A stretch of DNA of 64,000 nt from a bacterium (GTDB taxonomy: Bacteria; Sysuimicrobiota; Sysuimicrobiia; Sysuimicrobiales; Segetimicrobiaceae). The stretch spans positions 1 through 64,000 of the forward strand of contig DASYZR010000116.1 of the NCBI GenBank assembly GCA_035945995.1, in the 5' to 3' direction. A program made the translations under genes and the position numbers. A model generated the notes under the pieces. The model saw nothing but the letters and a program-made list of their open reading frames with translations, did no database searches and was not told the origin of the DNA. Within the stretch, counting starts at the first letter, position 1. Every line of letters starts with the position of its first letter. Below are positions 26,498 through 57,210 of the stretch, one piece after another.

Positions 26498-26534
26498 ACA
26501 AAAAAACCCGGTCCCCATCATCTCCGGCCGGGTT
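26498..26534 (-). terminator. Intrinsic terminator upstream of the small membrane peptide
   Basis: On the minus strand AACCCGG (26534-26528) pairs with CCGGGTT (26511-26505) around a 16-base loop, and the 3' arm runs straight into a T tract of about seven. It ends transcription entering from about 26.6-26.7 kb, where no protein gene on this strand is visible, or acts as the expression platform of a leader RNA for the small peptide. Confidence 0.75.
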
Positions 26535-34895: not shown

Positions 34896-35971
34896 GAAGA
34901 CAAAGAGGAGACTAGCCGTCGTCGGTCCTCCCTTCTCGCGAGTGCATCCGTGACTTCCAATAGGAGCCGCTCCGCGTCCTGGTCCGTCAATGACGGGTAG
35001 AGGGGGATTGAGAGAGCCCTCGCCGTCACCGCCTCCGTATGGCTGAACCCTTCTTCCCCGAGGTACCGGTGCAGCGGGCGAGGCACCGGGGTCTTGCACT
35101 CGACGCCGCGGTCACGAAGAGCGCCGGCCAACCGCGGGGCGTCGTCCACCCCGATGACGTATCGATAGAAGATGTGCGTCCGCTCCGGCGCGTCGGCGGG
35201 GAGTATGAGGGAGTACTCGCGGAACGAGGCAGCGTACCGGGCGGCCAGTGCCCTGCGCCGCGCGATAAACTCCCCCAACCGCTTCAGTTGACTCAATCCG
35301 AGCGCGGCCTGGAAGTCGGTCATCTTGTAATTGAATCGCGTGGGGAGCGCGCCGCGCCCGTCATAGTCGCGCAGGTCACGTGCCCGTCTTAGGACCACCT
35401 CGGAGTCGGCGAGCAGCATGCCCCCCTCGCCGGTGGTGATGACCTTTGTCGCGTAGAAGGAACAGACCGTGATCGTCCCCGCGCTGCCCACAGTCCGGCC
35501 GCGATACGTTGCGCCGAGTGTCTGGGCGCAATCCTCGATCAACGGAAGTCCGAGCCCGCCCAGCGCGTCGAGGTCGGCCGGCATTCCGAACATGTGCGGG
35601 ACGATGATCGCGCGGGTGCGCGGAGTCATCCGGCGGCGCGCCTCATGGGGGCACATCCCGTATTCGCCCGCGGCGATGTCCACAAGCCGCGGCGTCGCAC
35701 CAACGTAGCGGACGGCATGCAACAGAGCCACGCAGGTGTAGGACGGCAGGAGCACTTCGTCTCCCGGCCCGATGTCGAGGGTGAGCAGGGCGAGGTGCAG
35801 CGCACCGGTTCCGGAACTGGTCGCCACGCCGCCGCGCCGGGTCAGGAAGCCGGCGACCGCCGCCTCAAACTCCTCCACCCTTGCGCCCTGTGCCAGATGT
35901 CCCGACCGCAGGACATCGCTGACGGCGTCGATGTCCTCCGGCCCGATCATGGGCCGGGAATGGGGAATCAC
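34892..35971 (-). CDS. DegT/DnrJ/EryC1 PLP-dependent sugar aminotransferase
   Basis: Transfers an amino group to a keto-sugar nucleotide, giving amino sugars for surface glycans. The PLP lysine is in SFYATKVITTGEGG (Lys176), with LIEDCAQTLGATYRG and PHMFGMPADLDAL as the cofactor-binding parts. It has 359 residues. GTG 35971 is chosen because it forms a GTGA overlap with the PIG-L stop; a GTG six codons earlier is possible. Neighbours PIG-L deacetylase and the WecA-like transferase suggest an amino-sugar glycan or glycolipid route. Confidence 0.9.
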   Translation of the reverse strand: MIPHSRPMIGPEDIDAVSDVLRSGHLAQGARVEEFEAAVAGFLTRRGGVATSSGTGALHLALLTLDIGPGDEVLLPSYTCVALLHAVRYVGATPRLVDIAAGEYGMCPHEARRRMTPRTRAIIVPHMFGMPADLDALGGLGLPLIEDCAQTLGATYRGRTVGSAGTITVCSFYATKVITTGEGGMLLADSEVVLRRARDLRDYDGRGALPTRFNYKMTDFQAALGLSQLKRLGEFIARRRALAARYAASFREYSLILPADAPERTHIFYRYVIGVDDAPRLAGALRDRGVECKTPVPRPLHRYLGEEGFSHTEAVTARALSIPLYPSLTDQDAERLLLEVTDALARREDRRRLVSSLSS

Positions 35972-36672
35972 AGAACCACGCGGTGGCACTCGAAGGCCTC
36001 GGCGGCATCCACGGCAATATTCGCCCCCCGGAAGCGCGCGAGATACTCAACATTCTTGATACTGCCGGGGTCCGGAAGCTGCCGCAACTGGGATTTGTGA
36101 CACGCCAGCGCATCCAGCTTGATAGGCAGGTATTCGGAGATGTCGACGTAGAGATCGGGACGGAACCCGTCGCCCCAACCCAACTGGGCGGCGTCACATG
36201 CCAGCACCAGGTTGATGAAGGGCTTGTCGTTGCGGAGATGCGGGCGGCACGCCGCGAACCCTGCCTTGAAGACCGCCTCGTGGTCCTGATTATATGAGGG
36301 ATGGGGAAGGATGAGCGCGGTCGGCCGCAACTTGTCGATGGCGTATTGCGCCTCGCGCTCGAAGAGGGCGATGAGATCACGGCGTGGGATCGCATCAAGG
36401 CGTAGGTGCGTCTTCGCATCCCGAAACAGGACTTCGTATCCATCCACCTTCAGGAGTTCCATGGATGCACGCAATTCGGCTTCCCGCGTTTCGGCCGCGA
36501 CGGCCGAGGCTTCGGACTTGTAATGCTGCAGGTCCCCGACGGACACGACGATGACGTAGACTTCGCCGCCGGCCGCCTTGATTTTCGCCATCGTGCCTGC
36601 GCAGCCGTACGCTTCGTCATCCGGGTGCGGGGCCACGACCAAAGCCCGTTGTTTGGCCCAAAATTCGGTCAT
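35968..36672 (-). CDS. PIG-L/LmbE family N-acetylglucosaminyl deacetylase
   Basis: Zinc-dependent deacetylases of GlcNAc-containing conjugates such as mycothiol, bacillithiol, teicoplanin or glycolipid precursors. The metal motif APHPDDE is at 14-20, and a second set (LPHPSYNQDH) supplies the third ligand. There are 234 residues, a normal length. The start ATG 36672 lies 10 bases or more after no clear site; it is the first gene in its minus-strand run. It is cotranscribed with the aminotransferase and the WecA-like transferase, which favours a surface glycan role over thiol synthesis. Confidence 0.9.
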   Translation of the reverse strand: MTEFWAKQRALVVAPHPDDEAYGCAGTMAKIKAAGGEVYVIVVSVGDLQHYKSEASAVAAETREAELRASMELLKVDGYEVLFRDAKTHLRLDAIPRRDLIALFEREAQYAIDKLRPTALILPHPSYNQDHEAVFKAGFAACRPHLRNDKPFINLVLACDAAQLGWGDGFRPDLYVDISEYLPIKLDALACHKSQLRQLPDPGSIKNVEYLARFRGANIAVDAAEAFECHRVVL

Positions 36673-36895: not shown

Positions 36896-36928
36896 GTCCT
36901 CTTGAGCGAAAAATCATGTCCTCTTGAG
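36896..36928. repeat. Direct repeats of GTCCTCTTGAG, 22-bp period
   Basis: Two identical 11-base copies at 36896-36906 and 36918-36928 start 22 bases apart, two helical turns, which suits binding of a dimeric regulator on one face of the DNA. They lie about 145-175 bases before the PEP-CTERM start codon. Confidence 0.7.
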
Positions 36929-36947
36929 GGAGAGCAATATTATCCCC

Positions 36948-37005
36948 GGATGGCTTATTCTAATTGCGGATCGACGGATGGCTTATTCCAACTGTGGATC
37001 GACGG
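36948..37005. repeat. Tandem repeat of 28-bp period upstream of the first PEP-CTERM gene
   Basis: The 30-base unit beginning GGATGGCTTATTC occurs at 36948-36977 and again at 36976-37005, overlapping by two bases. The copies differ at three positions, all transitions. It lies 65-122 bases before the PEP-CTERM start, within the probable leader or promoter. Confidence 0.9.
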
Positions 37006-37070
37006 TGGTTTGGAACAGGTCCAACCGGGTGGCGGGCGACCGGCTCGACCCCCCTAAGGGAGGAGCGGCG

Positions 37071-37676
37071 ATGAAGATGCGTCGGTTATTGGGCGTTATG
37101 CTCGCTCTGGGCGGGGTTGTTTTTCTTTGGGGGATCGGTGCGTCGCCCGCGGCGGCGGATACGACAACGATTGGTCTCACTGATGGCTCGGTGACCATCA
37201 CTACCCTTACGCCGACCACCGCGACGGCCACGTTCACCGCCAGCGCCGGATTTGCGTTTATCGACACGAACGTCGTTGATCTGAATCTAAACACCGGCAT
37301 CACTCTCGGGACGTTTAGCGGCAACGGCGGCGCGCTCACCTCCGAAGGTGCCGCGAATGTGAGCGCTTTCGGGATTATCAATACGACGTTCGACCAATTT
37401 GATGGGTGTGGCCCCGGAAACTTCAGCACCACGGACACCATCAACTTGAGCGGCGGAACCACCGCAGCCTCGTATGTCACGCCAAACACCGATGGCTGGT
37501 TGGCTGCCGCGCACATTTGTAATCTTACTACCGGGTTCACATTCTTTACGGCCGGGAACACGACCACCACCATCATCTCGACAGTGCCTGAGCCGAGTTC
37601 GCTGTCCATGCTCGGCTTTGGTTTGGTGTCTCTCGGAGGACTCGGAGGCTGGATTCGCCGCCGGCGTCCGGCGTAG
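37071..37676 (+). CDS. PEP-CTERM exported protein 1
   Basis: The C-terminus carries the full exosortase sorting signal: the proline-glutamate-proline box VPEPSS, a hydrophobic stretch (SLSMLGFGLVSLGGLGGW) and an Arg-rich tail IRRRRPA. The N-terminus is a signal peptide (MKMRRLLGVMLALGG, cleavage near ASPAAADT). The 201-residue body is Thr-, Gly- and Asn-rich beta-strand-like sequence with two cysteines and many possible glycosylation sites, typical of this class. ATG 37071 has AAGGGAGGAG five bases upstream. Exported, sorted to the envelope or matrix by exosortase; the exosortase gene lies 8.4 kb downstream. Body function unknown. Confidence 0.9.
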   Translation: MKMRRLLGVMLALGGVVFLWGIGASPAAADTTTIGLTDGSVTITTLTPTTATATFTASAGFAFIDTNVVDLNLNTGITLGTFSGNGGALTSEGAANVSAFGIINTTFDQFDGCGPGNFSTTDTINLSGGTTAASYVTPNTDGWLAAAHICNLTTGFTFFTAGNTTTTIISTVPEPSSLSMLGFGLVSLGGLGGWIRRRRPA

Positions 37677-37706
37677 CTCACCTTCGACAGCGGCTAACCA
37701 AAGATG

Positions 37707-37737
37707 GTCACGCCCGGCCACGTTGGCCGGGCGTGAC
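37707..37737. terminator. Bidirectional hairpin between PEP-CTERM 1 and the S53 peptidase genes
   Basis: A perfect 13-base-pair stem, GTCACGCCCGGCC with its complement, around a five-base loop. The plus strand then runs TTATTGC; the minus side has ATCTTTGG. It sits between convergent genes and can end both transcripts. Confidence 0.8.
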
Positions 37738-37787
37738 TTATTGCTTGGCGAGATCCTCCCTCGACGCGCGAGCGTCTGCGACGTTGA

Positions 37788-39125
37788 TCAGTACGCCTGG
37801 AAGAATTGGGTGAGCCCTTTGACCAGCGACGTCCCAAGTCCCGTCACGAAGTTGTAGCCCGGGCCCGCCGTACAGATGGCGCCGCAGCTCCCGTTGCTTC
37901 CCGACGTGATGTCGCGGTAATCGATCGAGTACCAAGTCGGAGGTGCCGCCGCATAGGCGAGGGAGTAACTGGAGTTGCTGCCACCGAGAGAGGATTTCCC
38001 GATAGCCTTGCGCGCGCTGTTCAGGACCGCGATGACGGCCGACCAACTGGGGGCGCTGAAGCTCGTCCCGCCTACTTGGAACCAGCCGGATTGGCCATTG
38101 TAGCCGGTCGAATCATAGATCGGCACTCCCGTGTAAGGATCGGCATCAAAGGAAACGTCGGGGACGCCTCGATGACCTCCCGTTGCCGGGATGGAGTAGT
38201 TGGATTGATATTGAGGCTCCGTTTCATAGGCGCTGATTCCTCCGCCCGACCCGCTCCAGGCCGTCTCGGGGCCCGTGAGGTTGCCGTAACTATCGAGTGG
38301 GAGACTCGTCCCGCCAACACTCACGACGTAGGGGGAGGCGGCGGGCCACACGACCCCACTGCCCGAATCGCCAGACCCGGCGACGAACACCACCCCCGGA
38401 TTGCTGCTAAAATAGCTATCGAGGCTTGATTCTCCGGAGAATTCCGGCGTGTCCCAGCTCATGGAGACCACCGTGACACCGTAGGGGACGGCGGTCGAGT
38501 CGGAATTTAGCATGTCGGAGAGCGAGCTGCTGTTGGCTTCAACAAGCAGGATATCCGCTCCGGGCGCGATGGCATGAGCCCACTGCGTGTCCAACGCTTG
38601 CTCGAGCGCCCAGGTAGCATCGACGGTCTGGCCGCTGATCTTGCATCCCTTCTTCGCATGGCAGTTACCCCCGCCTCCACCACCCCCGCCTCCCCCGCCA
38701 CCACTGGGAGGCGGAGTGTAACTGCCCCCACCGCCGGTCGAACCTTCCGGAATCACCTGGAAGCAAGGGTGTGGCCCGGCGGTCACGGTACAAGAGGCCG
38801 TATTCGGCAGACCGTACATGGAAGGCAGGTTGAACGTCGCGATAAACGTCTGGAGGTCGCTCGCGGCCGTGGGATACTGGTAGGCGTCGACGATTGCGAT
38901 GATTTGGCCGGCACCGCTGTACGAGACCTGGTCGATCCCGTACGCATGCCGGATTTGAGCCGGTGAATAGCCGCTCGGGCCGGTCGTGGCATTGCCGCGA
39001 ACATGGACCGGATGCCTGACCAGAATCTTCGAAGGAGGCTCACCGATCGCGGATCCGATTTGAGCCGCAGTCATGAGCGTTCCGACCAAGAGAACTGCTG
39101 TGATGCCCAAAGCGGCGCGTTTCAT
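37788..39125 (-). CDS. Secreted sedolisin-type serine-carboxyl peptidase (S53)
   Basis: Acid-active secreted endopeptidase family. Catalytic residues fit the sedolisin plan: Glu175 and Asp179 (WALEQALDTQW), oxyanion Asp253 (VAGSGDSGSG) and nucleophile Ser355 (VGGTSFSAPSW); a calcium-site-like end is near the C-terminus. The N-terminal signal peptide is MKRAALGITAVLLVGTLMTAA. The usual long propeptide is missing; only about 50 residues precede the catalytic core, and a 12-glycine run (142-153) interrupts the early part. ATG 39125 follows a strong G-rich site; the open frame starts further upstream. It lies between the two PEP-CTERM genes but has no PEP tail itself. Confidence 0.88.
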   Translation of the reverse strand: MKRAALGITAVLLVGTLMTAAQIGSAIGEPPSKILVRHPVHVRGNATTGPSGYSPAQIRHAYGIDQVSYSGAGQIIAIVDAYQYPTAASDLQTFIATFNLPSMYGLPNTASCTVTAGPHPCFQVIPEGSTGGGGSYTPPPSGGGGGGGGGGGGNCHAKKGCKISGQTVDATWALEQALDTQWAHAIAPGADILLVEANSSSLSDMLNSDSTAVPYGVTVVSMSWDTPEFSGESSLDSYFSSNPGVVFVAGSGDSGSGVVWPAASPYVVSVGGTSLPLDSYGNLTGPETAWSGSGGGISAYETEPQYQSNYSIPATGGHRGVPDVSFDADPYTGVPIYDSTGYNGQSGWFQVGGTSFSAPSWSAVIAVLNSARKAIGKSSLGGSNSSYSLAYAAAPPTWYSIDYRDITSGSNGSCGAICTAGPGYNFVTGLGTSLVKGLTQFFQAY

Positions 39126-39440
39126 CCGACCCCCCCCTGCTCTCAGGGACATCAAGGCGTTATCGCTCGACCGATCCTGCTTCCTTATGCACATCTTTCG
39201 GTGGAAACAGGACCTTTCGGCGTGAACGCGCCTAGCCGAGCTTCAGGGCGGCACGGCCAGCATTGGGACGAGATCCGCCCAAATTTCGTGTAGCCTCCTT
39301 CAAACGTCTCTAAATTCAAGTGTGAATCTGCCCTTGACGGCTCGGGCGGTTTCGGCGGAACGGCCCGTGCTACGGATTCATCCGCTGGACACCGAGTTCC
39401 GTTCTGACGAAGGAGAGACGTCCGCGGGCCATTTTTGTAA

Positions 39441-39502
39441 GGTGTAGTTGCCTAGGAAGGTGTAGTTGCCTAGGTAGGAAGGTGTAGTTGCCTAGGTAGG
39501 AA
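39441..39502. repeat. Three direct repeats of GGTGTAGTTGCCTAGG
   Basis: Identical 16-base copies start at 39441, 39459 and 39481, with periods 18 and 22. The last two are followed by TAGGAA. They lie directly upstream of the promoter candidate of the second PEP-CTERM gene, a position expected for activator or repressor binding. Confidence 0.9.
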
Positions 39503-39513
39503 GGGCTGACGGC

Positions 39514-39542
39514 TTGGCAAGGGTTGTAGTTCATGTGATAGG
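39514..39542 (+). promoter_or_regulatory. Weak promoter candidate for PEP-CTERM 2
   Basis: TTGGCA (39514-39519) and GATAGG (39537-39542) are 17 bases apart, and the latter has an extended TGT before it. Match to consensus is partial, which would agree with dependence on an activator bound at the adjacent repeats. Confidence 0.4.
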
Positions 39543-39636
39543 GTCAAATCGTTCAAAGGAGTGGAGGAGTCGGCGGGAGCAAAGAGCTACTTTCCTCTTG
39601 GGTGAAAGGCAGAATCCGCGCCGAAGGAGTGCAACG

Positions 39637-40308
39637 ATGATTACGAAATTGGCGGGAATCGCACTTTTGGCTGGAGTGCTTCTCGTGGTGGGAGCAACCA
39701 ATGCGCAGGCTACGACCGTGGCCATCAATAGCGGAGCGGGTGTGCCTTATACTCAGACCGCGGGCACGGGTTGCCCGACCCCGACGGGTGCCAGCACGAC
39801 GATCACACCCAATCCCTTGTGGGTCGCGGCTCCGGCCGGCTCCGCGTGGATCTCGTGTGGCAGTAACGGTGGCGCCATCGGAGGTGCCACTATCAGCACG
39901 GGCGGTGTCATAAACTTCACCCAAACCTTCATCCTTCCGGCGGGCCCAATCTCCGGTGGAACGCTCTTGATTGCGGCGGACGACACGACCGGAGTGTTAC
40001 TGAATGGCATAACACTCGCGACCGCCGGCGGCCCAGTGGGAACCCATTGCGTAGTGAGCGGCATTACGTGCACCTCGCTGACCACGCTCGCCCTTCCGGC
40101 CGGGGACCTGATACCGGGCGGGAACGTCTTGCTCTTCGACGTACACGAGCTTGACGGGGACGGGACGGGCATCGTGTACTCCGGTGCGGTGAGTGTCGTG
40201 CCGGAGCCGGGATCCGTGCTCCTATTCGGCACGGGCCTGATGGGGCTCGTAGGGATGAGGTTCAACCGCAGAAGGAAGAGCGGCGAGCGGCGGGCGATTC
40301 CCGCGTGA
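39637..40308 (+). CDS. PEP-CTERM exported protein 2
   Basis: Signal peptide MITKLAGIALLAGVLLVVGATNAQA with cleavage likely before TTVAI, then a 160-residue Gly/Thr/Ile-rich beta-type body with four cysteines (CPTPTG, ISCGS, HCVVS, ITCTS) that may pair after export, and a complete sorting signal: VPEPGS, hydrophobic VLLFGTGLMGLVGM, and RFNRRRKSGERR. The start ATG 39637 has AAGGAG seven bases upstream; the open frame starts earlier without a site. The body sequence differs from PEP-CTERM 1, so the two share only sorting. Cell-surface or matrix component by inference. Confidence 0.9.
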   Translation: MITKLAGIALLAGVLLVVGATNAQATTVAINSGAGVPYTQTAGTGCPTPTGASTTITPNPLWVAAPAGSAWISCGSNGGAIGGATISTGGVINFTQTFILPAGPISGGTLLIAADDTTGVLLNGITLATAGGPVGTHCVVSGITCTSLTTLALPAGDLIPGGNVLLFDVHELDGDGTGIVYSGAVSVVPEPGSVLLFGTGLMGLVGMRFNRRRKSGERRAIPA

Positions 40309-40345
40309 GTACGGCTTAGCCAGAGATCAACAACTTTATCGACTC

Positions 40346-40381
40346 AAGAGAGCCGCGGAGGGGAGATCCGACGGCTTTCTT
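40346..40381 (+). terminator. Terminator or attenuator after PEP-CTERM 2
   Basis: AAGAGAGCCG pairs with CGGCTTTCTT (one mismatch) around a 16-base loop, followed by TTGTTT. It lies 40 bases after the PEP-CTERM stop and 39 bases before the TPR gene, and may end the abundant PEP-CTERM message while allowing some readthrough. Confidence 0.6.
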
Positions 40382-40419
40382 GTTTGAATTCGGACGGCGA
40401 GGAGAGTGTTTACACCAAG

Positions 40420-42612
40420 ATGTCGCGGACGTTGAAGACACGGCCCGTATTGCTGATCCTGGCCTGCGTCGTGCTGCTAGGCGCGGTCTGGGGAATCGCA
40501 CGGGAGCGCACCCCTGCGGCGCGTCAAGCGCGATACTGGACCCGCGGGAACGCGGCGCTAGCGGCAGGACGCTATCCGGAAGCGATTCTCGATTTCAGGA
40601 GTGCGCTGCAGTTCACCCAACGCTCAGCCCCGGTGTATTACAAGCTCGGTCTCGCGTACCTGCGCGCGGGCGAGATCGGGCCGGCTTATCAGGGGCTGAC
40701 GAAGAGTCTCGACCTGGACCCGGCCAACTCCGACGCCCGCCTCGCATTGGGAGAGGTTCTCATTCTCGCCGGCCGGTACATCGGGGCCGGCGATCAAGCG
40801 GTGTTGGTTCTTAAGCGGGAGCCCAGCAACGCGCACGCGCATGTGGTGCTCGGCCGCAGCCTCGCGGGCCGGAAAGACTTGACCGCCGCAAGGCGCGAGG
40901 CGAACGAAGCGCTCCGGGTCGATCCAAAGTTCGCGGACGCCTACGTGCTGCTCGGATCGCTGGACGAAGCCCAGGGTGACTATGCGGGAGCCGGAGAGGC
41001 CTATGCGCGGGGGGTGCGCCTCGGTTCGGACCCCGACCCGCGCCTGGCACTGGCGGGGTTTCTGGAGCGGCACGCCCGGTGGGACGCCGCGGAACAAGCA
41101 CTCAGGGATGCCGTCCGTGCGTTCCCGCGGCGGGCGGAACCCTATCTCGCGCTTGGCGACCTCTACGCGTCCCGGCAGAAGCCTGCGGACGCGGAGAGCC
41201 AATATCAGAAGGCTCAGTCGCTCGCCCCATCGTCCGCGGTACCCGATTTGCGGATCGCGGACCTTCTGATGTCCCAGAACCGGCTTGATGAGGCGAAGGC
41301 CACCGTCGACAAGCTCGTGGCTCGCGATCCGCAGAATTCCGCGGCACACCTCCTTCTTGGGAAGATCCACCTTGTACGCGGCGACGTGAACCCGGCGATT
41401 ACGGAGTTAGAGGCCGCGGTGGGCGGCCAGCCCGGCGTGCCGCTGGCGCACGATCTCCTCGCCCACGCCTATCTGCTCAAAGGCGATACGGCCTCCGCAC
41501 GGGCGCAGCTTCTTGAAAGTCTGAAACTCGATCCTCGGCTCACCGATGCAAGGGTGACGCTGGCGAATCTGGAGTTGCAATCGGGAAATCCAACGGCGGC
41601 TGAGGCTGAGCTCAAGGACTACGTGACGGCCGACCCCAAGGGCTATGCTGCCCACATGCTCTTGGGGGCATTCTATGTGAACCAGAAGGCCCTCCCCCAG
41701 GCCTTTGCGACGTACCAGCAGGCGATCGCGCTTGCACCACGGAACCCCGCACCGTACGTCAGGCTGGGCGTCGCCTACCGCCTGGCGGGCCGGGGCGACG
41801 ATGCCGTCCGGGAGTTCGAAACCGCCCTTACGCTTCAGCCTGATTCCGCCGAGGCCCTCAGAGAAGAGGCCGTAACCTATCTGCAAGAGAAGGAACCGGC
41901 CCGCGCGGTGCAGCGGGTCGAGGCCCAGGTCGCCCGGGTGCCGAAGAGCGCGCTGCTGCAAACGTTACGCGGCGAAGTCTACGAGACCGTGGGGGACCGC
42001 ACAAGGGCGGAAGAGGCCTTCTACCGGGCCATTTCAACGGAGCCGAACGTGCTGGCACCATATCTATCACTCGGCAGCCTGTACGCCGACAACAAGGCGT
42101 ACGAGATGGCGGCGGGCAAATACGAAGAGGCAATCCGTCTGAACCCCCGTTTCGTCCCTGCCTATGCCATCCTGGGGATGCTGTACGAAAGACTCGGTAA
42201 CGTGGACCGGTCGAGGGAGTACTACAAGCAAGCGCTCGCGCAGGATCCGCGCTTCGGTCCGGCGGCCAACAACCTGGCGTGGTCGTACATCGAGCACGGC
42301 GGCGATCTCAAGCAGGCCCTGACCCTCGCCCAGACCGCGTGGCTGGCCATGCCAAACGACCCCCACGTGGCTGATACGCTCGGATGGGCGTACTACAAGA
42401 CCGGCGCGGTCCAGAAGGCCGTGCCGCTCCTTCAGCGAGGCGCACGGCAGTTGGCGGACGATCCGGTCGTTCACTATCACCTCGGCCTGGCCTACTACCG
42501 TTCGGGCAATGGCGAGATGGCCAAGCAGGAGTTACGCCGGGCACTCGCGATCAGGCAGGATTTCAGGGGAGTTGACGATGCCCGTCGGACGCTGGCGGGT
42601 CTCGGCGGGTAG
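40420..42612 (+). CDS. Large TPR protein associated with the PEP-CTERM/exosortase locus
   Basis: After one membrane segment (about 9-27, RPVLLILACVVLLGAVWG) the 730-residue protein is built almost entirely of tetratricopeptide repeats, about 17, recognisable as the W/Y-L-G-Y-A-P pattern (AYVLLGSLDEAQGDYAGA, APYLSLGSLYADNKAYEMA, PAYAILGMLYERLGNVDRS). It resembles PrsT-type TPR proteins found with exosortase systems, but lacks a lipobox cysteine at the start. ATG 40420 is chosen; GGAGAG lies 12 bases upstream, and a TTG 12 codons earlier is possible. Likely a periplasmic scaffold for secretion or polysaccharide assembly. Confidence 0.82.
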   Translation: MSRTLKTRPVLLILACVVLLGAVWGIARERTPAARQARYWTRGNAALAAGRYPEAILDFRSALQFTQRSAPVYYKLGLAYLRAGEIGPAYQGLTKSLDLDPANSDARLALGEVLILAGRYIGAGDQAVLVLKREPSNAHAHVVLGRSLAGRKDLTAARREANEALRVDPKFADAYVLLGSLDEAQGDYAGAGEAYARGVRLGSDPDPRLALAGFLERHARWDAAEQALRDAVRAFPRRAEPYLALGDLYASRQKPADAESQYQKAQSLAPSSAVPDLRIADLLMSQNRLDEAKATVDKLVARDPQNSAAHLLLGKIHLVRGDVNPAITELEAAVGGQPGVPLAHDLLAHAYLLKGDTASARAQLLESLKLDPRLTDARVTLANLELQSGNPTAAEAELKDYVTADPKGYAAHMLLGAFYVNQKALPQAFATYQQAIALAPRNPAPYVRLGVAYRLAGRGDDAVREFETALTLQPDSAEALREEAVTYLQEKEPARAVQRVEAQVARVPKSALLQTLRGEVYETVGDRTRAEEAFYRAISTEPNVLAPYLSLGSLYADNKAYEMAAGKYEEAIRLNPRFVPAYAILGMLYERLGNVDRSREYYKQALAQDPRFGPAANNLAWSYIEHGGDLKQALTLAQTAWLAMPNDPHVADTLGWAYYKTGAVQKAVPLLQRGARQLADDPVVHYHLGLAYYRSGNGEMAKQELRRALAIRQDFRGVDDARRTLAGLGG

Positions 42613-42656
42613 GGTTTGGCCGCGGCAAACGAACCAGCCCTGTCAAGGAACTCTCC

Positions 42657-42694
42657 AACCGGGGGTGTTTAGAAAGAACCCCCGGTTCCCTTTT
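42657..42694 (+). terminator. Rho-independent terminator after the TPR gene
   Basis: A perfect 10-base stem, AACCGGGGGT with ACCCCCGGTT, around an 11-base loop, followed by CCCTTTT on the plus strand. It ends the transcript from 40.4 kb, so the downstream Gly-rich and glycosidase-like genes need their own promoter. Confidence 0.85.
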
Positions 42695-42825
42695 GTGAGA
42701 CCGTGCGCGCTTTGAGACGTTCCCGGGTCGTCAAACATACGTGGATTGGGCACAATTTGAAGGCCTGGACCCCGGTTTGGGTCCAAGGCTGGCAGTCTGT
42801 CTCCAAAGTCCGAAGGGGGGATCCG

Positions 42826-43866
42826 ATGCCAGACGTCGGAGCATCCGATCTTCGCGGCAGTTTCCACAAAGGCGCACCGAAGCGTTGGCGACGGAAAGCT
42901 TCAACCGCAACCGCATTGACCGCTTATGTTCTGAGCACGGTCATGGCGATGCCCGCGGTCAGTGGCGGGATTTCTACATTGATAACGCCAGGAAGTGCGC
43001 TGGGTCCCGTGAGCTTGGGGATGTCGGAAAAGCAAGTCACTGCCATCCTAGGCTCTTCGGAGCGTACGCAATCAGGGGCATTGACGTTCCCACGTTGGGC
43101 GATAACTGTGGACTTCCGAAAGGGGAATGCCATACGAATTGGCACCCTCAGTCCGCTCTTTCGGACGATTCAAGATCTGCGAGTGGGAGTATCTCACGCG
43201 AGAGCCACTCAACTCATTGGCGACCAGAATGAGGTCCTCGACGCCGCGGGTACCTATCTCACTGTCCTTTATCCCTTTGAGGGCGTAGGCCTCGTGTTCC
43301 GCGATGATCGCGCGATCGAGATATTCATCCAGCCGCCTCTCCACGTACATCCTTCGATCGCAAGGATACTCCCACTGGATCCGGCCCCGAGCCAACCGGT
43401 CCAGTCCGGCAACAAGGCAGCGGTCAGTGATAGTGCCACAGGGAGCGGTGGCGGCGGTGCTGACACTGGAGGCAGTGGCGGTGGCGGCGGTGGTGCTGGG
43501 AGCAGTAGTGGTGGCGGCACCACTGGAGGTGCCAATGCGACCGGTAATCCGGCCGCTGGCAATCCTGTTAGCGCGACCAATGGTAGCACGACGAGCAGTG
43601 GAGGGGCGAGCAATGGCTCTGGGGCCGGCGCCAGCCCCGGACCTAGCACGCCTCTTGCCGGGACCGATGACACCGCGGTAGCCTTTGCCGGCGCTCCCAG
43701 CAGCTTCGGTGCCGAGTTGGCAGTCAACGGTGGAACGCTCTCCGTCGCGGCTCCTCTGAACGGTGCTAAGAGGCTGTTTGAGCCAGGGCCTGTAGCGTCC
43801 TCAGGAGGGACAATTACGGACTCGTTTGCGCCGATGGGTGTGCACGTATACGTTTCGGCGCCGTAA
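42826..43866 (+). CDS. Exported Gly/Ser-rich protein with BamE-like repeats (unknown function)
   Basis: I do not recognise the family. After a basic start and a hydrophobic segment (STATALTAYVLSTVMAMPAVS) come two similar blocks with the pattern G-x-S-x-x-x-V/A-x-x-L/I-G, then a beta strand (LGMSEKQVTAILGSS...ITVDFRKGNAIRI; VGVSHARATQLIGDQ...LVFRDDRAIEIF), reminiscent of tandem BamE/SmpA-type modules. A long Gly/Ser/Thr/Asn linker (about 215-300) follows, then a C-terminal strand region ending DSFAPMGVHVYVSAP that closely resembles the end of the next gene's product. ATG 42826 follows GGGGGGATCCG; a seven-base leader hairpin lies at 42766-42785. Base composition is AT-richer than the chromosome average. 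Confidence 0.65.
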   Translation: MPDVGASDLRGSFHKGAPKRWRRKASTATALTAYVLSTVMAMPAVSGGISTLITPGSALGPVSLGMSEKQVTAILGSSERTQSGALTFPRWAITVDFRKGNAIRIGTLSPLFRTIQDLRVGVSHARATQLIGDQNEVLDAAGTYLTVLYPFEGVGLVFRDDRAIEIFIQPPLHVHPSIARILPLDPAPSQPVQSGNKAAVSDSATGSGGGGADTGGSGGGGGGAGSSSGGGTTGGANATGNPAAGNPVSATNGSTTSSGGASNGSGAGASPGPSTPLAGTDDTAVAFAGAPSSFGAELAVNGGTLSVAAPLNGAKRLFEPGPVASSGGTITDSFAPMGVHVYVSAP

Positions 43867-43868
43867 TC

Positions 43869-45353
43869 ATGATGAAACTGCGACGAGACACTCTGAGCCA
43901 GTGGGCTGAGGACACCAGACACCGAACGTTGAGCCGCCGCGAGTTCGTCCGTCGGGCCGCCAGATTTGCCGGCGGCGCCGCGCTGAGCCTAGCCATGCTG
44001 GACAATGCTGAACCTGCCGCAGCGGGAACTCCTCCACCTGTGACCTCAACAGGAATCGATTCGAACAACAACTTCACTCTCAACGGCAAGCCGTTTCTTC
44101 TTATCCAGGGGGAGACTTTGGACTATGCATCCTGGGGACAAGCAGGCTATACGACGCAACAGGCAGACGCGAAACTAGCGCAGGCGGCGGCGGCGGGGCT
44201 GAACGTCGTTGTCGGCAACTGGTTCGGCATCGATACTCCTCTCTGGACCAATCACGGGATTTACTGGCACGGTTATTGCCTCCGCGACCTCGGAGTGGGG
44301 AACGATTGCCGAGGCGCGTGGCACACGCCCGCAGCACTGGCCAGTTCTTGCGCTCCGCAGATCGTCTCAAAGTACGCCTCTAAGCCGAACCTCATTGCAT
44401 GGATGCTCGACGGAGAATTGGAATTGGATTCAAGCGTCACTTCAGACCCGCAAGGAGTCGTCAATACCTACATGCAGGCTGAGAGTTACATTCGATCCAT
44501 TGATCCTGCGAAGCGGGTGAATTTTACCACGCTCGTGGCCGCGGGGCCGTGGACGCTCGCGTGCAACCCGAACGCGAACCAGGTTTCGATGCTCGAGATG
44601 GTGTTATCGTACCAATACCCGTGGATCGGGTTGCAAAAGCTCTGGGACGTTCTGAACTACTTCAATCAGCAGGTCCTGAGCCATCCCGCGGGACTCGGCT
44701 GGGTTCCCTCTGTTTCGACGACCGTAGTGAAGGAACTGCTGTCATACACCCACTCGGGACCAATACGTTCCTTCAACGAGGCCAATAGGTTTTTTTGGTT
44801 ACAGGTTGCGATGAACTGCCGGGCGTTCAGTGTCCTCTGGGGCGCGAACACGCGCGATCCTTCGCTGGCCCCCAACAGCGGTGACGCGGGCCTGCCTGCC
44901 GGATACCTGGATAGTTGGAATTGGACATGGCAGATTGTAGGGAACATCAAGTCCTTGGAGTCCGTGATCCTGGGACCGGGGAATTGGGCAAGGGTGCCCA
45001 CGACCCCGCAATTTTCTCCCTGGGCGCCCGGCGGAGGCATTCATCGCCCCAATCTCGACTATCTCTTCAAAGGCATCTATGCGGCCAAGAAGGTCGGCCC
45101 AGACGGCCACACCTACGTGGTCGCAATTAACATGCAGGAAAACGACACGGTAGGTACGGAGTTGCCGCTGAGACACGCCAGCCTGCACCTGGACCGGCCT
45201 ATTCGCAGTGCAACTCGTTTGTTCGATCGAACCTTGACAGCTCGGAAAGGGCCAAGTGCATTCGTCCCCATGACGGTTTCCGGAAATCGGATTATTGCGG
45301 ATTTTGAGCCGATGGAGGTGCACGTCTACAAACTGTCTGAAGATGAAATGTGA
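43869..45353 (+). CDS. Tat-exported glycoside-hydrolase-like protein
   Basis: The N-terminus has a twin-arginine signal (LSRREFVRRAARFAGG) with a hydrophobic stretch and an A-A-A-G cleavage region, so it is exported folded. The mature part begins FTLNGKPFLLIQGETL, and has TIM-barrel-type features of clan A glycosidases: GLNVVVGNWFGIDT, LIAWMLDGELELD (a possible acid/base Glu), FSVLWGANTRDPS. The C-terminal domain is beta-sandwich-like, ending DFEPMEVHVYKL. I cannot name the GH family or substrate. It starts three bases after the preceding stop; no clear ribosome-binding site. It precedes the exosortase gene by 158 bases and may act on the locus polysaccharide. Confidence 0.75.
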   Translation: MMKLRRDTLSQWAEDTRHRTLSRREFVRRAARFAGGAALSLAMLDNAEPAAAGTPPPVTSTGIDSNNNFTLNGKPFLLIQGETLDYASWGQAGYTTQQADAKLAQAAAAGLNVVVGNWFGIDTPLWTNHGIYWHGYCLRDLGVGNDCRGAWHTPAALASSCAPQIVSKYASKPNLIAWMLDGELELDSSVTSDPQGVVNTYMQAESYIRSIDPAKRVNFTTLVAAGPWTLACNPNANQVSMLEMVLSYQYPWIGLQKLWDVLNYFNQQVLSHPAGLGWVPSVSTTVVKELLSYTHSGPIRSFNEANRFFWLQVAMNCRAFSVLWGANTRDPSLAPNSGDAGLPAGYLDSWNWTWQIVGNIKSLESVILGPGNWARVPTTPQFSPWAPGGGIHRPNLDYLFKGIYAAKKVGPDGHTYVVAINMQENDTVGTELPLRHASLHLDRPIRSATRLFDRTLTARKGPSAFVPMTVSGNRIIADFEPMEVHVYKLSEDEM

Positions 45354-45511
45354 TGTTTGCCGAGCGGCCGCGGATTATCTACGATGACCGGTTGGATGGT
45401 CCTCATTCGATTGATGGAGCCGTTTCCTCCTTTTGATCGAGGGTCTGCAAACAACCCCTGCCTTAACATTGCTGAGAGATCACCGCGACGTCACCGCACG
45501 GGATAAGAGGA

Positions 45512-46420
45512 GTGCTGTCCGTTTCCAGTTCCGCCGTACCGGCTTCCGAGCGGCCGCGCCGAGAGTTGATCGGGGGGGTTCCCCTCGCTGTTGTCTTTCA
45601 GGTCGCCGCGCTGGGAGCCGTGATCGCCGTCCTTTACGGTCAAGCGTTCGCCGATCTCGCCTCACAATGGGCCGCTGACGAGAATTACTCGCACGGGTTC
45701 GTGATCCCTCTCATCAGTGCGTACCTCGTGTGGGAGCGGAGGCACGCGCTGTCCCGGTGCCGTGTACAGGGCTCCGCGTGGGGATACGCGCTACTCTTGC
45801 TCGCAGTGGCCCTGCTCATTCTTGGCCAGGCGGCGACCTTTGGGTACCCCGTCCGCCTGTCGTTTATCCTCGTGCTCGCCGGTCTCACGCTCTACCTTGC
45901 CGGCGGGCAGGTCCTGCGCATCCTCGCCTTCCCCTTCGCCTACCTCCTGTTCATGATCCCGCTTCCGGCCCCTGTCTTGACGAAAGTCGCGCTCCCCCTT
46001 CAACTCTTTGCCGCGCGGGTCGCTACGGGAGTGCTCGACGTGCTCAACGTCCCCGTGCTCCGTGAGGGCAACGTCATCGACCTCGCCACGATCAGGTTGG
46101 ATGTCGTGGAAGCATGTAGTGGCATCCGGTCGCTCATCGCGCTTCTCGCCCTTGCCACCATTTTCGCGTACTTTACCCAACGGACGTGGCGGGGGCGACT
46201 CACCCTCGTTCTCTCCGCCATCCCGATTGCGGTTGTGGCCAACGCTGCGCGCGTGACACTGACGGGGGTACTGACACAGACGTTTGGGCTGGCGGCCGCG
46301 ATGGGCTTCTATCACGAGTTTTCGGGATTGTTGGTCTTTGGGCTCGCATTCGCGTTGATGGTCGCCACAGGCTGGATGATTACGCGCGTCGATACTGCGA
46401 GCGCGAAGACGCCGGCATGA
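45512..46420 (+). CDS. Exosortase
   Basis: Integral membrane cysteine transpeptidase-like protein that processes PEP-CTERM signals. Eight helices are predicted. The conserved set is present: DENYSHGFVIPLISAYLVW (56-74), catalytic Cys202 in VVEACSGIRSL, Arg247 in VVANAARVTLTG and His268 in FYHEFSGLLVF. The length of 302 residues suits a stand-alone exosortase of the EpsH family. The start is taken as GTG 45512, but GAGGA abuts it, an unusual spacing; TTG 45569 is a weak alternative. Its stop overlaps the EpsI start as ATGA. It is presumably the enzyme for the two PEP-CTERM proteins upstream. Confidence 0.93.
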   Translation: MLSVSSSAVPASERPRRELIGGVPLAVVFQVAALGAVIAVLYGQAFADLASQWAADENYSHGFVIPLISAYLVWERRHALSRCRVQGSAWGYALLLLAVALLILGQAATFGYPVRLSFILVLAGLTLYLAGGQVLRILAFPFAYLLFMIPLPAPVLTKVALPLQLFAARVATGVLDVLNVPVLREGNVIDLATIRLDVVEACSGIRSLIALLALATIFAYFTQRTWRGRLTLVLSAIPIAVVANAARVTLTGVLTQTFGLAAAMGFYHEFSGLLVFGLAFALMVATGWMITRVDTASAKTPA

Positions 46421-47046
46421 ACCGAAGAGCCTTCGCCATTGCCCTGATCACGCTCGCCGTAGCCGCTGTGGTCCTGAGGGCCGTCGAGTACGCTCCCGCC
46501 GTCCCGGTTCGCACCCCTCTACGGGACTTCCCGCTGCACGTCCTCGGGTGGCGCGGACAGTCGAGTTTCTTCACGCCGGATGTCGTCGCCGAGCTGCGCG
46601 CCGATGACTATCTCGTCCGAACCTACCAAGATCGCGCGGGAGATGCGTTGGGGCTGTATGTCGCGTATTACAGTTCTCAACCCCCGGGGACCCGCATCCA
46701 CTCTCCGGCCGTCTGTCTTCCTGCTGCCGGCTGGTATATCAAACGCTCCGGGCTCGAGCAGATCAGACTCGCCGATCGCACCATTACTGTCAATCGGAAC
46801 CTGATCGAAAAGGGAGATGAGCACCAGGTCGTTCTCTATTGGTATCAGATGCACGGAGTGGTTGCGGCAAGGGAGCTTCAGGCCATAAGCCTGCTGGCGT
46901 GGACGTCGCTCACCCAGCGGAGGACTGATGAGGCACTGGTGCGGGTAAACGCGGCGTTCGCCGGCGAGGCTCAGGACACGGTGGAACGGGAAACCGCCTT
47001 CGTCCGAAACGTCTTTCCACTGCTGAAACACTACCTGCCGGAATAG
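46417..47046 (+). CDS. EpsI-family exosortase-associated protein
   Basis: EpsI proteins (DUF3485) accompany exosortases, as separate genes or as a C-terminal fusion. This one has a signal/membrane segment (about 5-21), the conserved block HSPAVCLPAAGW (95-106) with Cys100, and the C-terminal part LYWYQMHGVVAARELQA and FVRNVFPLLKHYLPE. The 209-residue protein begins in an ATGA overlap with the exosortase gene, so both are translated together. Its exact role is unproven; export or polysaccharide processing is suspected. Confidence 0.92.
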   Translation: MNRRAFAIALITLAVAAVVLRAVEYAPAVPVRTPLRDFPLHVLGWRGQSSFFTPDVVAELRADDYLVRTYQDRAGDALGLYVAYYSSQPPGTRIHSPAVCLPAAGWYIKRSGLEQIRLADRTITVNRNLIEKGDEHQVVLYWYQMHGVVAARELQAISLLAWTSLTQRRTDEALVRVNAAFAGEAQDTVERETAFVRNVFPLLKHYLPE

Positions 47047-47120: not shown

Positions 47121-48140
47121 TCACGCGCACAACACACCATGCCGGCGCGACGCGAGGAGACTTCCGGCACTCGACGCAGAGAATTCCAACAGATGGATTG
47201 CCGCAAAGATTGCAAGCTCGATATTCGACCGCACCGTGATCTTTCGCTTCTGCGCGGCGTGTTTGATGAGCAGCATCAGACGGGCCCAGTACAAACACAG
47301 TGGAATGAGAGACCACGGCGTGAGCACGCTCAGCGCGATGAGCGCCATCGAAATCTTCTCGGGGCTCGTCAGATTGACGCACATCGTCACCGGTGCCCGC
47401 GCTGACATGGTATGCCGTCCGATCATTACGCTGGCGATGCCGTGGAAATGCTTTCGCATCAGCCTGGGTCTGCCCGCCCCATAGAAGAATTGGCGCTTCA
47501 GGGCGGCGCTCAGCGTAGGCCGGTGAATATGCCGAACGCGGGCCGCGGGCGCTCCAACGATCACCCCCCCACCCCGCAAAATTCGCCAGCACAGATCCAG
47601 GTCCTCACCCGTCGACATTGATTCATCGAACAGGCCGAACCGCTTTAGCACGTCAACCCGAACGGAGAGATTGGCCGTGTAAAATACCGTCGTCGGGCCA
47701 TACGCGGTGATCGTAGTTGCCTGATCCGGCTGGGGAAACGCCGTTATGGCTAGGCACCGCTCGATCAGCGTTTGGGGCTCGTATTCGCTGATGCCGCCAG
47801 AAACTGCGGCGATCTCGGGGCTTGCGTAAGCTTCGGCGATTTGGGCCAGCCATTCCGGTTCCGGAACGCAGTCGGCGTCCGTAAAGGCGACAATTCCCTC
47901 GTCAAGCAGGCGCAGAGCCGCGTTGCGCGCCGCGGCCTGTCCACGCGTCTGCTCACGTCGGACGTGCATGTACGGAGCGGCCGCGGCCTGTTCCTGAAGC
48001 CATTCGTACGTGCCGTCCGAGGAGCCGTTGTCCACGAAGTAAATCGAATCGGGCCGCCGCGTCTGTCGCAGCAACGCATCCACACATCGCGCGATTGTCC
48101 GGCGGGCGTTGTATGCGGGAACGACGACACTAATACGCAT
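47121..48140 (-). CDS. Glycosyltransferase family 2
   Basis: GT-A fold inverting glycosyltransferase. ISVVVPAYNARRTI opens the nucleotide-binding domain, FTDADCVPEPEWL holds the metal-binding DxD, and STGEDLDLCWRI contains the ED acceptor-base motif. One or two hydrophobic helices near the C-terminus (ALIALSVLTPWSLIPLCLYWA) anchor it to the membrane. ATG 48140 follows AAGGA by five bases; the frame opens nine codons earlier inside the asnB end. It is the last gene of the polysaccharide operon and converges on epsI. Confidence 0.9.
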   Translation of the reverse strand: MRISVVVPAYNARRTIARCVDALLRQTRRPDSIYFVDNGSSDGTYEWLQEQAAAAPYMHVRREQTRGQAAARNAALRLLDEGIVAFTDADCVPEPEWLAQIAEAYASPEIAAVSGGISEYEPQTLIERCLAITAFPQPDQATTITAYGPTTVFYTANLSVRVDVLKRFGLFDESMSTGEDLDLCWRILRGGGVIVGAPAARVRHIHRPTLSAALKRQFFYGAGRPRLMRKHFHGIASVMIGRHTMSARAPVTMCVNLTSPEKISMALIALSVLTPWSLIPLCLYWARLMLLIKHAAQKRKITVRSNIELAIFAAIHLLEFSASSAGSLLASRRHGVLCA

Positions 48141-48153
48141 GGCGTTCCTTATC

Positions 48154-50127
48154 TTATTGCGCTCCAACCGCGTCCACTGCGATCTGTCCGGGCCGAGTCA
48201 TCCGCTGTCGGAGATCTCCCCGCCGCAGCATTCGAAGCCACACTTCCAAGTTGAGGAGCGCCCACAAACGATCCCCGTTATTTTTCCTTTCTTCTTTATG
48301 CTCGCGGTAGAGGCTCCGTATGGCGTCGGCTCTGAGATAGTCGTTCACATGCGCGTCGCGTGCCAGCAACGTCTCCTCAGCATATGGCCGAAGCTCGTGG
48401 CGAAACCAGCGGTCAACCGGCGCGGTGAACCCGTGCTTGCGCCGGCGAAGCAGTTCGCGCGGCAGCATGTCGCGAAAGGCCAGCCGCAAGATGTACTTCA
48501 GCTGCCCGCGGCGGATTTTCATCTCGGGTGGGAGCGACGCAACGAACTCGACCAGGGCTGTGTCAAGCATCGGGGACCGCGTCTCCAGCCCGTGCGCCAT
48601 ACTCATCCGATCCATCTTCACGTGGAGATCGTCCGGGAGATACGTCGTGAAATTGAGATGAAGGAGCCGTTGCAGCAACGGAAGCGTCGCGAGTCGCTGG
48701 TCCGGCTGACGGAGGCTGCCGAATAAGTGCTCCGCGGCCAGATCCGCCTCTGGGCCGGGACCCATCAACGTCGCGACCGTCGGGGCATCAAAGAGAGACA
48801 TCCACCCGGCGAACCGCTCCTCAACGGAGGTGTGCGCCTGGAAGAAGAAACGCTCCAGCCGGCGACGCGGGCTATAGTAACCATCGCCATTCGGGAGCCA
48901 GCGCGAGATCGTCCGCCCCAGGGGGGCCACCGCCGAAGGGATCTTCGCGGCGAGCATCGCGGCCAAGAAACGCTCGTACCCCGCAAACACCTCGTCCCCG
49001 CCGTCTCCGTTTAGTGCGACCGTGACGTGCTGTCGTGCCAGCTGGGCGACGAGATACGTGGGAACGGCCGAGTAATCGCCATACGGCTGGTCATGATGCC
49101 AGAGGAGCGTCTCGACGAGGGAACCCACCTCTCCACGAAGCACGAGCACCGTATGGCGGGTGCGAAACTTCTTCGCGGCCGCCTCGGCGTAGGGTTGCTC
49201 ATCATAAGAAAGGTCGCCTGGAAAACCGGCGGTAAACGTGCGAACCGGTTCCTGGGTCAATTGCGACATGATCCCTACCACAATCGAGGAATCCAAACCG
49301 CCGCTCAACAGCGCGCCCAGCGGGACATCGCTGATCATTCGGCGGGCGACCGCTTGCGTCAGGAGCTCGCGGACGCGTCTCGCTGCCTCCGCCGCGGAGC
49401 GGATACCCGCAGGGGCCCGGTCTGAGAATTTGAGTTCCCAATAGCGGCGCGGGCCGCTGACGCCCGCCGCGTCCACGATCATGTATGATCCGGGCGGAAC
49501 TTGATAGACTCCACGGTACATCGTCCGAGGGCCCGGTACGTACCCGAAGACCAGGTACTCTGGAATGTGGTCGGCCGCCACATGCGGCTCAACCCAGGGA
49601 CAGGCGAGCAAGGCCTTGATCTCCTGCGCGAACGTGAACCGTGCCCCGTCCGCAATGTAGTACAGCGGCTTCTTGCCGGACCGGTCGCGCGCCAGTACCA
49701 GTCTTGCCCGCGGCTCGTCCCACAGCGCAAACGCAAACATCCCATCCAGGTGGCGAATGAAGTCGTCTCCGAACTGCTCATACGCGTGGACGATGGTCTC
49801 GGTATCGGACGCGGACCGAAATTCATGTCCGCACTGACGCAGCTCTGCCCGAAGCTCCCGAAAATTGTAAATTTCGCCGTTGAAGGTGACCCACACGGTC
49901 TTCGTCTCGTTCGGCATCGGTTGCCGGGCGGCGTCGGACAAGTCGATGATCTTGAGGCGACGATGACCGAGGAACACGGAGGGACGGCGCGTCGCCCCCG
50001 GCGCGGACCGTACGAGGGTCCCGTCTCCGTCGGGTCCGCGGTGCCGCAGCAGCTCCATCATCCGCCGGCCCGCGCCATCGTCCACCGGCTCTCCGTCCAG
50101 GTTAGCGAATCCGCAGATTCCGCACAC
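48154..50127 (-). CDS. Asparagine synthase-type amidotransferase (AsnB-like), EPS-associated
   Basis: Two-domain class II glutamine amidotransferase. Cys2 is the glutaminase nucleophile (MCGICGFANLDG), with FNGEIYNFRELRAELR typical, followed by the ATP-pyrophosphatase domain with LSGGLDSSIVVG. The 657-residue length matches AsnB-like proteins that accompany exosortase or EPS loci and probably amidate uronic acids or sugars rather than free aspartate. UDP-sugar dehydrogenase is encoded in the same operon, so an amidated uronic acid is plausible. It ends just before the GT2 gene. Confidence 0.9.
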   Translation of the reverse strand: MCGICGFANLDGEPVDDGAGRRMMELLRHRGPDGDGTLVRSAPGATRRPSVFLGHRRLKIIDLSDAARQPMPNETKTVWVTFNGEIYNFRELRAELRQCGHEFRSASDTETIVHAYEQFGDDFIRHLDGMFAFALWDEPRARLVLARDRSGKKPLYYIADGARFTFAQEIKALLACPWVEPHVAADHIPEYLVFGYVPGPRTMYRGVYQVPPGSYMIVDAAGVSGPRRYWELKFSDRAPAGIRSAAEAARRVRELLTQAVARRMISDVPLGALLSGGLDSSIVVGIMSQLTQEPVRTFTAGFPGDLSYDEQPYAEAAAKKFRTRHTVLVLRGEVGSLVETLLWHHDQPYGDYSAVPTYLVAQLARQHVTVALNGDGGDEVFAGYERFLAAMLAAKIPSAVAPLGRTISRWLPNGDGYYSPRRRLERFFFQAHTSVEERFAGWMSLFDAPTVATLMGPGPEADLAAEHLFGSLRQPDQRLATLPLLQRLLHLNFTTYLPDDLHVKMDRMSMAHGLETRSPMLDTALVEFVASLPPEMKIRRGQLKYILRLAFRDMLPRELLRRRKHGFTAPVDRWFRHELRPYAEETLLARDAHVNDYLRADAIRSLYREHKEERKNNGDRLWALLNLEVWLRMLRRGDLRQRMTRPGQIAVDAVGAQ

Positions 50128-50142
50128 CGCCGCGCTCCACCA

Positions 50143-50868
50143 TCAGACGTTTCCCGAAGCCACCGCCTCGGAAGCCTCACGCCGGCACCGTGCCAGAATG
50201 GACAGGGCCGCCTCGCCCTCATTGAACAGCAGGTCGATGATCGAGAGATCCGGCACGAATCCGAGGCGCATGTGCTGCTGGCGGTACGTCCGGCACTCCC
50301 ACCCCTGGAGTCCCACCTCGATGCCCCGCCCTTCAAACAGCGGCGCGTCGAGATGATTGTCCGCCGCATAGTCTCCGGTCAAGTACGTCGTGGCTCCGAG
50401 CGCGGCACAGATGTCGACAATCCGCTGCGTGCCCCGGCCGGAAATGCCGAGGTCCGAACTCCGAACGATTCGGGTCCGGATCCCCAGCACCGACACGAGC
50501 CACGCGAGTACATGCTCGCTCAGGTCGACCAGTCGCGGCCACTGCGCAGCGTAGATGTCCGCCAGCGCCGGCTGATAGAGATGCAAGAAGGGCGCCCGCG
50601 CGTAGTTCGTGCGGATCGCCATCCAATGCTTCTCCCGCCACCGCTCCTGATTGTTGATGCAGACGTCGGAGATCCGTTTGCCGAACGCGTCGACAACCGG
50701 GACCGTCAGGTACATCCACCCCTGCGCGCATTTGATCTTGTTGCGATTCTGCCAGCCGTTCTTCGTGTATGCCGCGTCGTCCAGCAGCACAAATACGTCG
50801 CTACGCGCGATCTTGTCGATGTAGCGCAGCCACGGAAGATAATGGGGCTGATGAATTGCGACAATCAT
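50143..50868 (-). CDS. WbqC-family protein
   Basis: WbqC-like proteins occur in O-antigen and exopolysaccharide loci; their biochemistry is not settled, though acyl or amino-sugar modification has been suggested. The start IVAIHQPHYLPWLRYIDKI and DAAYTKNGWQNRNKIK are typical, and the C-terminal part includes LTGDYAADNHLDAPLFEGRG-type segments. The frame opens earlier, but ATG 50868 makes an ATGA overlap with the upstream glycosyltransferase stop, giving 241 residues. It precedes asnB by 15 bases. Confidence 0.88.
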   Translation of the reverse strand: MIVAIHQPHYLPWLRYIDKIARSDVFVLLDDAAYTKNGWQNRNKIKCAQGWMYLTVPVVDAFGKRISDVCINNQERWREKHWMAIRTNYARAPFLHLYQPALADIYAAQWPRLVDLSEHVLAWLVSVLGIRTRIVRSSDLGISGRGTQRIVDICAALGATTYLTGDYAADNHLDAPLFEGRGIEVGLQGWECRTYRQQHMRLGFVPDLSIIDLLFNEGEAALSILARCRREASEAVASGNV

Positions 50869-53230: not shown

Positions 53231-53255
53231 AAACTCCCGCGACCGCGGCAACGCC

Positions 53256-57206: not shown

Positions 57207-57210
57207 ATGA

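Follow-up and report, generated by a model that had tools for sequence, protein, structure and literature searches.

In the PEP-CTERM/exosortase system described in Haft 2006 (models TIGR02602, TIGR02595 and TIGR02914), the proposal is that PEP-CTERM proteins are exported, retained by their C-terminal helix, cut by the exosortase and moved outward with exopolysaccharide (EPS); as a rule, PEP-CTERM requires an outer membrane and exopolysaccharide (PMC1569441). In Aquincola tertiaricarbonis, pepA lies directly 5′ of prsT; prsT is required for floc formation, pepA is involved in it, and PepA shifts exopolysaccharide from the soluble to the bound form (PMC9850573). In Nostoc, deletion of the single exosortase leaves a PEP-CTERM protein about 92-fold lower in the exoproteome (PMC12188702). 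Here we describe an exosortase/PEP-CTERM island at 36.9-47.0 kb of a 64,000-nucleotide stretch of bacterial DNA (the window) from the phylum Sysuimicrobiota. With a probability of roughly 85%, it encodes a compact, vertically maintained surface-anchoring system of Sysuimicrobiota that is dedicated to two locally encoded substrates.

The best reading is that the machinery is of a known kind, in an old, compact, two-substrate form. With the system of Haft 2006 it shares an exosortase, EpsI, a PrsT-like TPR protein, tagged proteins with signal peptides, EPS genes and a diderm host. It differs in having only two substrates, both encoded in the island, in its Sysuimicrobiota host, and in the lack of any PrsK over cut-off (83, against a cut-off of 300). 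All genes of the island lie on the plus strand except that of a sedolisin-like peptidase:

37071-37676, plus strand: PEP-CTERM protein 1 (PEP1), a putative substrate (PF07589, TIGR02595)
37788-39194, minus strand: sedolisin-like (S53-type) secreted peptidase, recognized by motifs only (GTSFSAPSW, by eye)
39637-40308, plus strand: PEP-CTERM protein 2 (PEP2), a putative substrate (PF07589, TIGR02595), immediately 5′ of the TPR gene
40384-42612, plus strand: PrsT-like TPR protein with an N-terminal membrane anchor (TIGR02917, 303.2 bits, cut-off 312.2)
42703-43866, plus strand: orf5, secreted, with a Gly-rich linker and a C terminus like that of orf6
43869-45353, plus strand: orf6, with a Tat-type signal (SRREFVRR) and two homologues in genome G024
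45512-46420, plus strand: exosortase of the EpsH/Xrt family (TIGR02602, PF09721), eight transmembrane segments, Cys202-Arg247-His268
46417-47046, plus strand: EpsI (DUF3485; TIGR02914, PF11984), single N-terminal transmembrane segment

An earlier note, made from the window alone, had staked its exosortase call on TIGR02602. The protein scores 222.2 bits with this model (cut-off 105.55) and 257 with PF09721 (cut-off 25.7). It has eight hydrophobic, membrane segments, and Cys202, Arg247 and His268 stand exactly where the note had placed them and are invariant in 19 of 19 aligned exosortases. On sequence grounds, the 36-47 kb region encodes a bona fide exosortase. It is the sole exosortase of a 4.15-Mb, 98.8% complete assembly; its start codon is ambiguous (GTG at 45512 or TTG at 45566). 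EpsI, for which TIGR02914 had been suggested as the check, passes it as well (134.4, cut-off 42.8) and scores 172 with PF11984. The probable EpsI start is the ATG at 46417, not 46186, giving a four-base ATGA overlap with the exosortase stop. Family models likewise confirm the two PEP-CTERM proteins and, next to the island, an AsnB-type amidotransferase and a family 2 glycosyltransferase; the TPR protein falls just short of the PrsT cut-off.

Both PEP-CTERM proteins exceed the cut-offs of the tag models: PEP1 scores 24.2 with PF07589 (cut-off 20.7) and 21.3 with TIGR02595 (cut-off 16), and PEP2 scores 27.0 and 23.4. PEP1 has a signal peptide, a Ser/Thr-rich core and a tail consisting of VPEPSS, a transmembrane segment and RRRR, and its ATG is preceded by a GGGAGG ribosome-binding site. 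PEP2 also has a signal peptide, and the C-terminal PEP-transmembrane-basic tails of both proteins were read directly. The mature cores of the two proteins, 144 and 161 residues long, are free of Lys and Arg, and 43-51% of their residues are Ser, Thr, Asn or Gly; in six other window proteins, Lys+Arg make up 4-14%. Because their cores lack Lys and Arg, PEP1 and PEP2 would be hardly visible to trypsin-based proteomics.

A genome-wide search for further PEP-CTERM proteins, which the earlier note had proposed, returned exactly two by PF07589 and by the TIGRFAM tag model, both in the island. Their genes lie at most 9 kb from the sole exosortase, and the whole set is contained within 10 kb. In 14 control genomes, PF07589 gave no score over its cut-off. 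Haft 2006 reported a median of eight PEP-CTERM proteins per genome, and only two species had no more than two (PMC1569441); two substrates are the low end of this range. The arrangement resembles the A. tertiaricarbonis pepA-prsT pair (PMC9850573) in that a PEP-CTERM gene lies directly 5′ of a PrsT-like TPR gene in an EPS context, and this order is conserved in four species (G000, G023, G024 and G028). However, Aquincola pepA is RpoN-dependent, whereas the sigma-54 site sought 5′ of the PEP-CTERM genes here gave nothing convincing; PEP1 is only weakly like the flocculation protein PepA (NF033554, 30 bits, cut-off 80), and PEP2 has no match to the PepA model.

Genes for polysaccharide synthesis lie on both sides of the island:

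33894-35099, minus strand: WecA/MraY-like polyprenyl-phosphate sugar-1-phosphate transferase, for glycan initiation (PF00953, 90.7)
34892-35989, minus strand: DegT/DnrJ/EryC1 sugar aminotransferase (PF01041, 283.9)
35968-36672, minus strand: PIG-L family deacetylase (PF02585, 73.5 bits), divergent from the island
47121-48167, minus strand: family 2 glycosyltransferase (PF00535, 98 bits)
48154-50127, minus strand: asparagine-synthase-type amidotransferase (TIGR01536, 483.6 against 267)
50143-63998, minus strand: polysaccharide cluster with WbqC, several glycosyltransferases, an NDP-sugar dehydrogenase, a Wzz/BY-kinase and an export protein

The WecA/MraY-like protein, whose true start lies inside the open frame, scores 86 bits with the WecA model TIGR02380, below cut-off. 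The export protein, which extends past the window end, has TIGR03027 (XrtA/PEP-CTERM export protein) as its best model, also below cut-off. The description of this region as a complete EPS operon was slightly overstated: the Wzz/BY-kinase, export protein, dehydrogenase and glycosyltransferases are in the window, but a candidate flippase gene is found only further along the contig (74530-76068), and family models identified no polymerase.

We propose that the exosortase, helped by the coupled EpsI, would cut PEP1 and PEP2 at or near the PEP motif through its Cys/Arg/His site and pass the mature chain to an acceptor. We know of no acceptor identified for exosortases in general. The mature Ser/Thr/Asn/Gly-rich, Lys/Arg-free proteins would then join or tether an exopolysaccharide made by the adjoining WecA-like, glycosyltransferase, Wzz-kinase and export genes, and so be anchored in it. 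The PrsT-like TPR protein may act in the periplasm, coupling export and polymer retention.

The envelope of the host was assessed in a phylum sample of 43 species from one order and seven families. BamA is present in 39 of the 43 genomes and LpxC in that of the window, which indicate a diderm in which at least the beginning of the lipid A pathway is present. As EPS genes adjoin the island, the outer-membrane-plus-exopolysaccharide rule appears to be obeyed. Sysuimicrobiota (CSP1-3, GAL15) is described as a phylum within Terrabacteria that has a single class and order and several families, a structure that the sample shares, and a phylum-specific 16S fluorescence in situ hybridization probe has been published (PMC11604079). 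This probe, TGTTGGGGGGTTACTCCC, has an exact match inside 16S genes in G010 and G017 and a match with a single mismatch in G034, and a reversed-pattern control gave 0 matches. The window's own assembly contains no match and is assigned to the phylum through the shared phylum group. The Terrabacteria-side diderm suspected from the window alone is thus borne out. In the literature searched, a partial set that is not proof of novelty, we found no earlier description of an exosortase in CSP1-3, Sysuimicrobiota or GAL15, and the paper describing the phylum never uses the word (PMC11604079); the suggestion of a little-described, lineage-specific compact form is supported.

Within the sample, the exosortase is found in family f1, in all three species of genus g1, in G028 (genus g3) and in G029 and G032 (genus g4), but is missing from genus g2 of this family; outside it, two members of family f5, G035 and G036, have the gene. 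The sequences fall into two lineages that separate in a 19-row exosortase tree. Lineage A (the window, G023, G024, G028 and G029) has 53-67% identity to the window exosortase, and lineage B (G032, G035 and G036) has 38-43%. A single clade for all eight phylum exosortases has a p-AU of 0.20 in this tree, which contains few outside rows. Lineage A occurs in three genera, and its usual neighbour there is one and the same PIG-L/WecA-like block. All lineage-A islands, like the two f5 islands, contain a TPR homologue. Close homologues of PIG-L occur in 12 of the 43 species, and PIG-L and its neighbours are kept in g2, so that the exosortase was most simply lost there. The gene block beside the island is also present in a second family. 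Gene order in the island varies, even inside a genus. The PIG-L gene of the window (35968-36672) is 92% identical to that of G024 (L014:11168-11872), compared with 59-71% for neighbouring genes, which suggests recombination or strong constraint on PIG-L. G032 (L019) is grouped in g4 of f1, yet both its exosortase (95/91) and its PIG-L (99/99) fall with f5.

The tags track the enzyme. The three g2 species, which lack the exosortase, have no PEP-CTERM protein over the Pfam cut-off, and exosortase and tags occur together in g1, g3, G029 and genus g19 of f5. In g1, g3 and f5, the island itself encodes tagged proteins. The compact state is not general in the phylum: tagged proteins number 5 in G028, 9 in G029 and 17 or more in G030. 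The G030 assembly (64% complete) has 17 or 18, several of them clustered on contig C170, and no exosortase in this incomplete sequence. Variant xEPG tags (SEPG, AEPG) lie near the exosortase in the f5 islands (L017:8882-9745 and L018:5017-5748), in proteins that the standard models miss or score weakly. G023 and G024 share one passenger protein at 52% identity but contain nothing close to PEP1 or PEP2. The passengers turn over quickly, and this is the most interesting lead, though a variation in degree.

Several points weigh against the system proposed here. The TPR protein and the amidotransferase fall short of the cut-offs of XrtA-system models (303.2 against 312.2, and 541.7 against 816.9 for TIGR03108). 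G032 has an exosortase and no recognizable PEP-CTERM protein, so the link between tag and enzyme is imperfect. LptD was not found with PF04453, and the outer membrane may be atypical. The same model also misses Synechococcus, and LpxC was therefore used as the test for lipopolysaccharide.

The alternative that survives best, while still improbable, is that this is a canonical XrtA system. The exosortase scores 221.4 bits with the XrtA model TIGR03109, above the cut-off of 208, the TPR protein is PrsT-like at 303 bits, and the neighbouring genes have XrtA-type models of the amidotransferase, chain-length and export proteins among their best matches. However, the XrtW model scores the same protein higher (260 bits), and a Desulfovibrionales exosortase also exceeds the TIGR03109 cut-off (219.6), so this cut-off is not specific to XrtA. 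A true Vibrio XrtA reaches 348, is an exosortase-EpsI fusion and has 25% identity to the window exosortase. The absence of a PrsK over cut-off and of a convincing sigma-54 site also argues against XrtA. In the 19-row tree, with its few outsiders and long branches, the window exosortase is not grouped with XrtA. Since the Desulfovibrionales protein passes the XrtA model and the accessory proteins miss the XrtA cut-offs, we file the exosortase by these scores as unclassified, not canonical XrtA, its nearest sampled outsiders being Desulfovibrionales.

Two further described arrangements are similar. Of the exosortase-EpsI fusions XrtD and XrtW, the XrtW model matches the exosortase part best (260 bits) and the XrtD model the EpsI part (169 bits), but here they are two separate, coupled genes and neither model cut-off is reached. 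The unclassified exosortases of Nitratidesulfovibrio plasmids and a Desulfovibrionales metagenome-assembled genome are the closest found outside the phylum (42-46% identity). Their loci likewise have a separate, adjoining EpsI and EPS genes around them, but the sugar genes are different and the stretches examined contain no PIG-L/WecA-like block. The scan of named genomes for related exosortases gave one locus only, that of the Desulfovibrionales metagenome-assembled genome, and the tree therefore has few outside rows. A more speculative proposal, which we consider rather unlikely, is that the exosortases of Sysuimicrobiota constitute a separate, as yet unnamed subtype, shaped by co-evolution with one or two passengers encoded in the island. 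In this genus the enzyme would then serve specifically to assemble one proteinaceous exopolysaccharide layer and would not be a general sorter of many surface proteins.

Recent transfer of the island, raised in the earlier note on account of its lower GC, is highly improbable. The GC of the island (57-67%) is indeed below that of the upstream flank (65-75%), but the drop includes the adjoining polysaccharide genes. GC at third codon positions (GC3) is 0.60-0.78 in island genes and 0.89-0.94 in valS, clpX and lon, and the nearest sampled exosortases outside the phylum are those of Desulfovibrionales; both points speak for transfer. However, GC3 is mostly 0.74-0.84 in DegT, GGDEF and AsnB next to the island and in the orthologous islands of sister species (mostly 0.74-0.80 in the sister-species genes); only orf5, orf6 and PEP1 are lower still. 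Because neighbours and sister-species islands have similar values, low GC is a feature of genes of this class and does not signal recent arrival. That g1 (3/3 species), g3 and G029 have a common exosortase lineage, mostly beside PIG-L/WecA-like genes, and that the block occurs in a second family speak against a recently transferred module.

Nor is a decaying, non-functional remnant at all likely. Haft 2006 raised non-functionality for genomes with single or low-scoring tags (PMC1569441), and the two substrates found here place the genome among the rare low counts of that table. Against decay, every gene is intact, the active-site residues and the coupling of EpsI are preserved, and the tails are well formed. 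The genus has retained the exosortase in all three species, at 53-67% identity, together with one or two tagged proteins, which implies selection. Finally, that the EpsH-like protein itself serves polysaccharide synthesis or export, with the PEP-CTERM proteins incidental, is extremely unlikely: EpsH was first known from the methanolan locus, among EPS genes, but disruption of epsH in Methylobacillus left methanolan unaffected (PMC1569441), the protease-like triad is invariant, and tags and exosortase co-occur in the phylum.

The remaining island genes are less readily assigned. orf5 and orf6 have no family match in Pfam and NCBIfam searches. Their C-terminal segments are alike (..MGVHVY and MEVHVY..), a likeness noticed through the G024 homologues. 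orf6 is possibly a glycoside-hydrolase-like protein; its single-sequence structure prediction is uninformative (pLDDT 34), and phmmer against the PDB gave no convincing match for it or for the exosortase. The sedolisin-like peptidase has no Pfam or NCBIfam match, and no counterpart was seen in related islands.

Two regulatory RNAs lie elsewhere in the window. The T-box that the earlier note reported at valS is real though sub-threshold (38.6 bits, Rfam gathering 93, E 4.6e-7). This leader (11716-11950, minus strand), 5′ of valS, carries the canonical AAGGUGGUACCGCG antiterminator element, and its specifier appears to be GUC (Val). Because it scores below gathering, Rfam-based surveys may miss the T-boxes of this GC-rich phylum. 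A c-di-GMP-II riboswitch (26519-26600, minus strand, 57.1 bits), with two further copies elsewhere in the genome, occupies an unusual place, about 330 bases 5′ of a gene resembling that of trigger factor, after which come genes like clpP, clpX and lon (named by inspection). It was considered as a regulator of the island and rejected: the window copy is about 10 kb away and precedes the trigger-factor-like gene.

The compact two-substrate system described here would extend Gram-negative-style protein sorting to an uncultivated phylum on the Terrabacteria side, in agreement with the outer-membrane-plus-exopolysaccharide rule. One exosortase and two substrates in one locus are a minimal natural setup, in which the question of what the substrates are attached to should be unusually easy to test.

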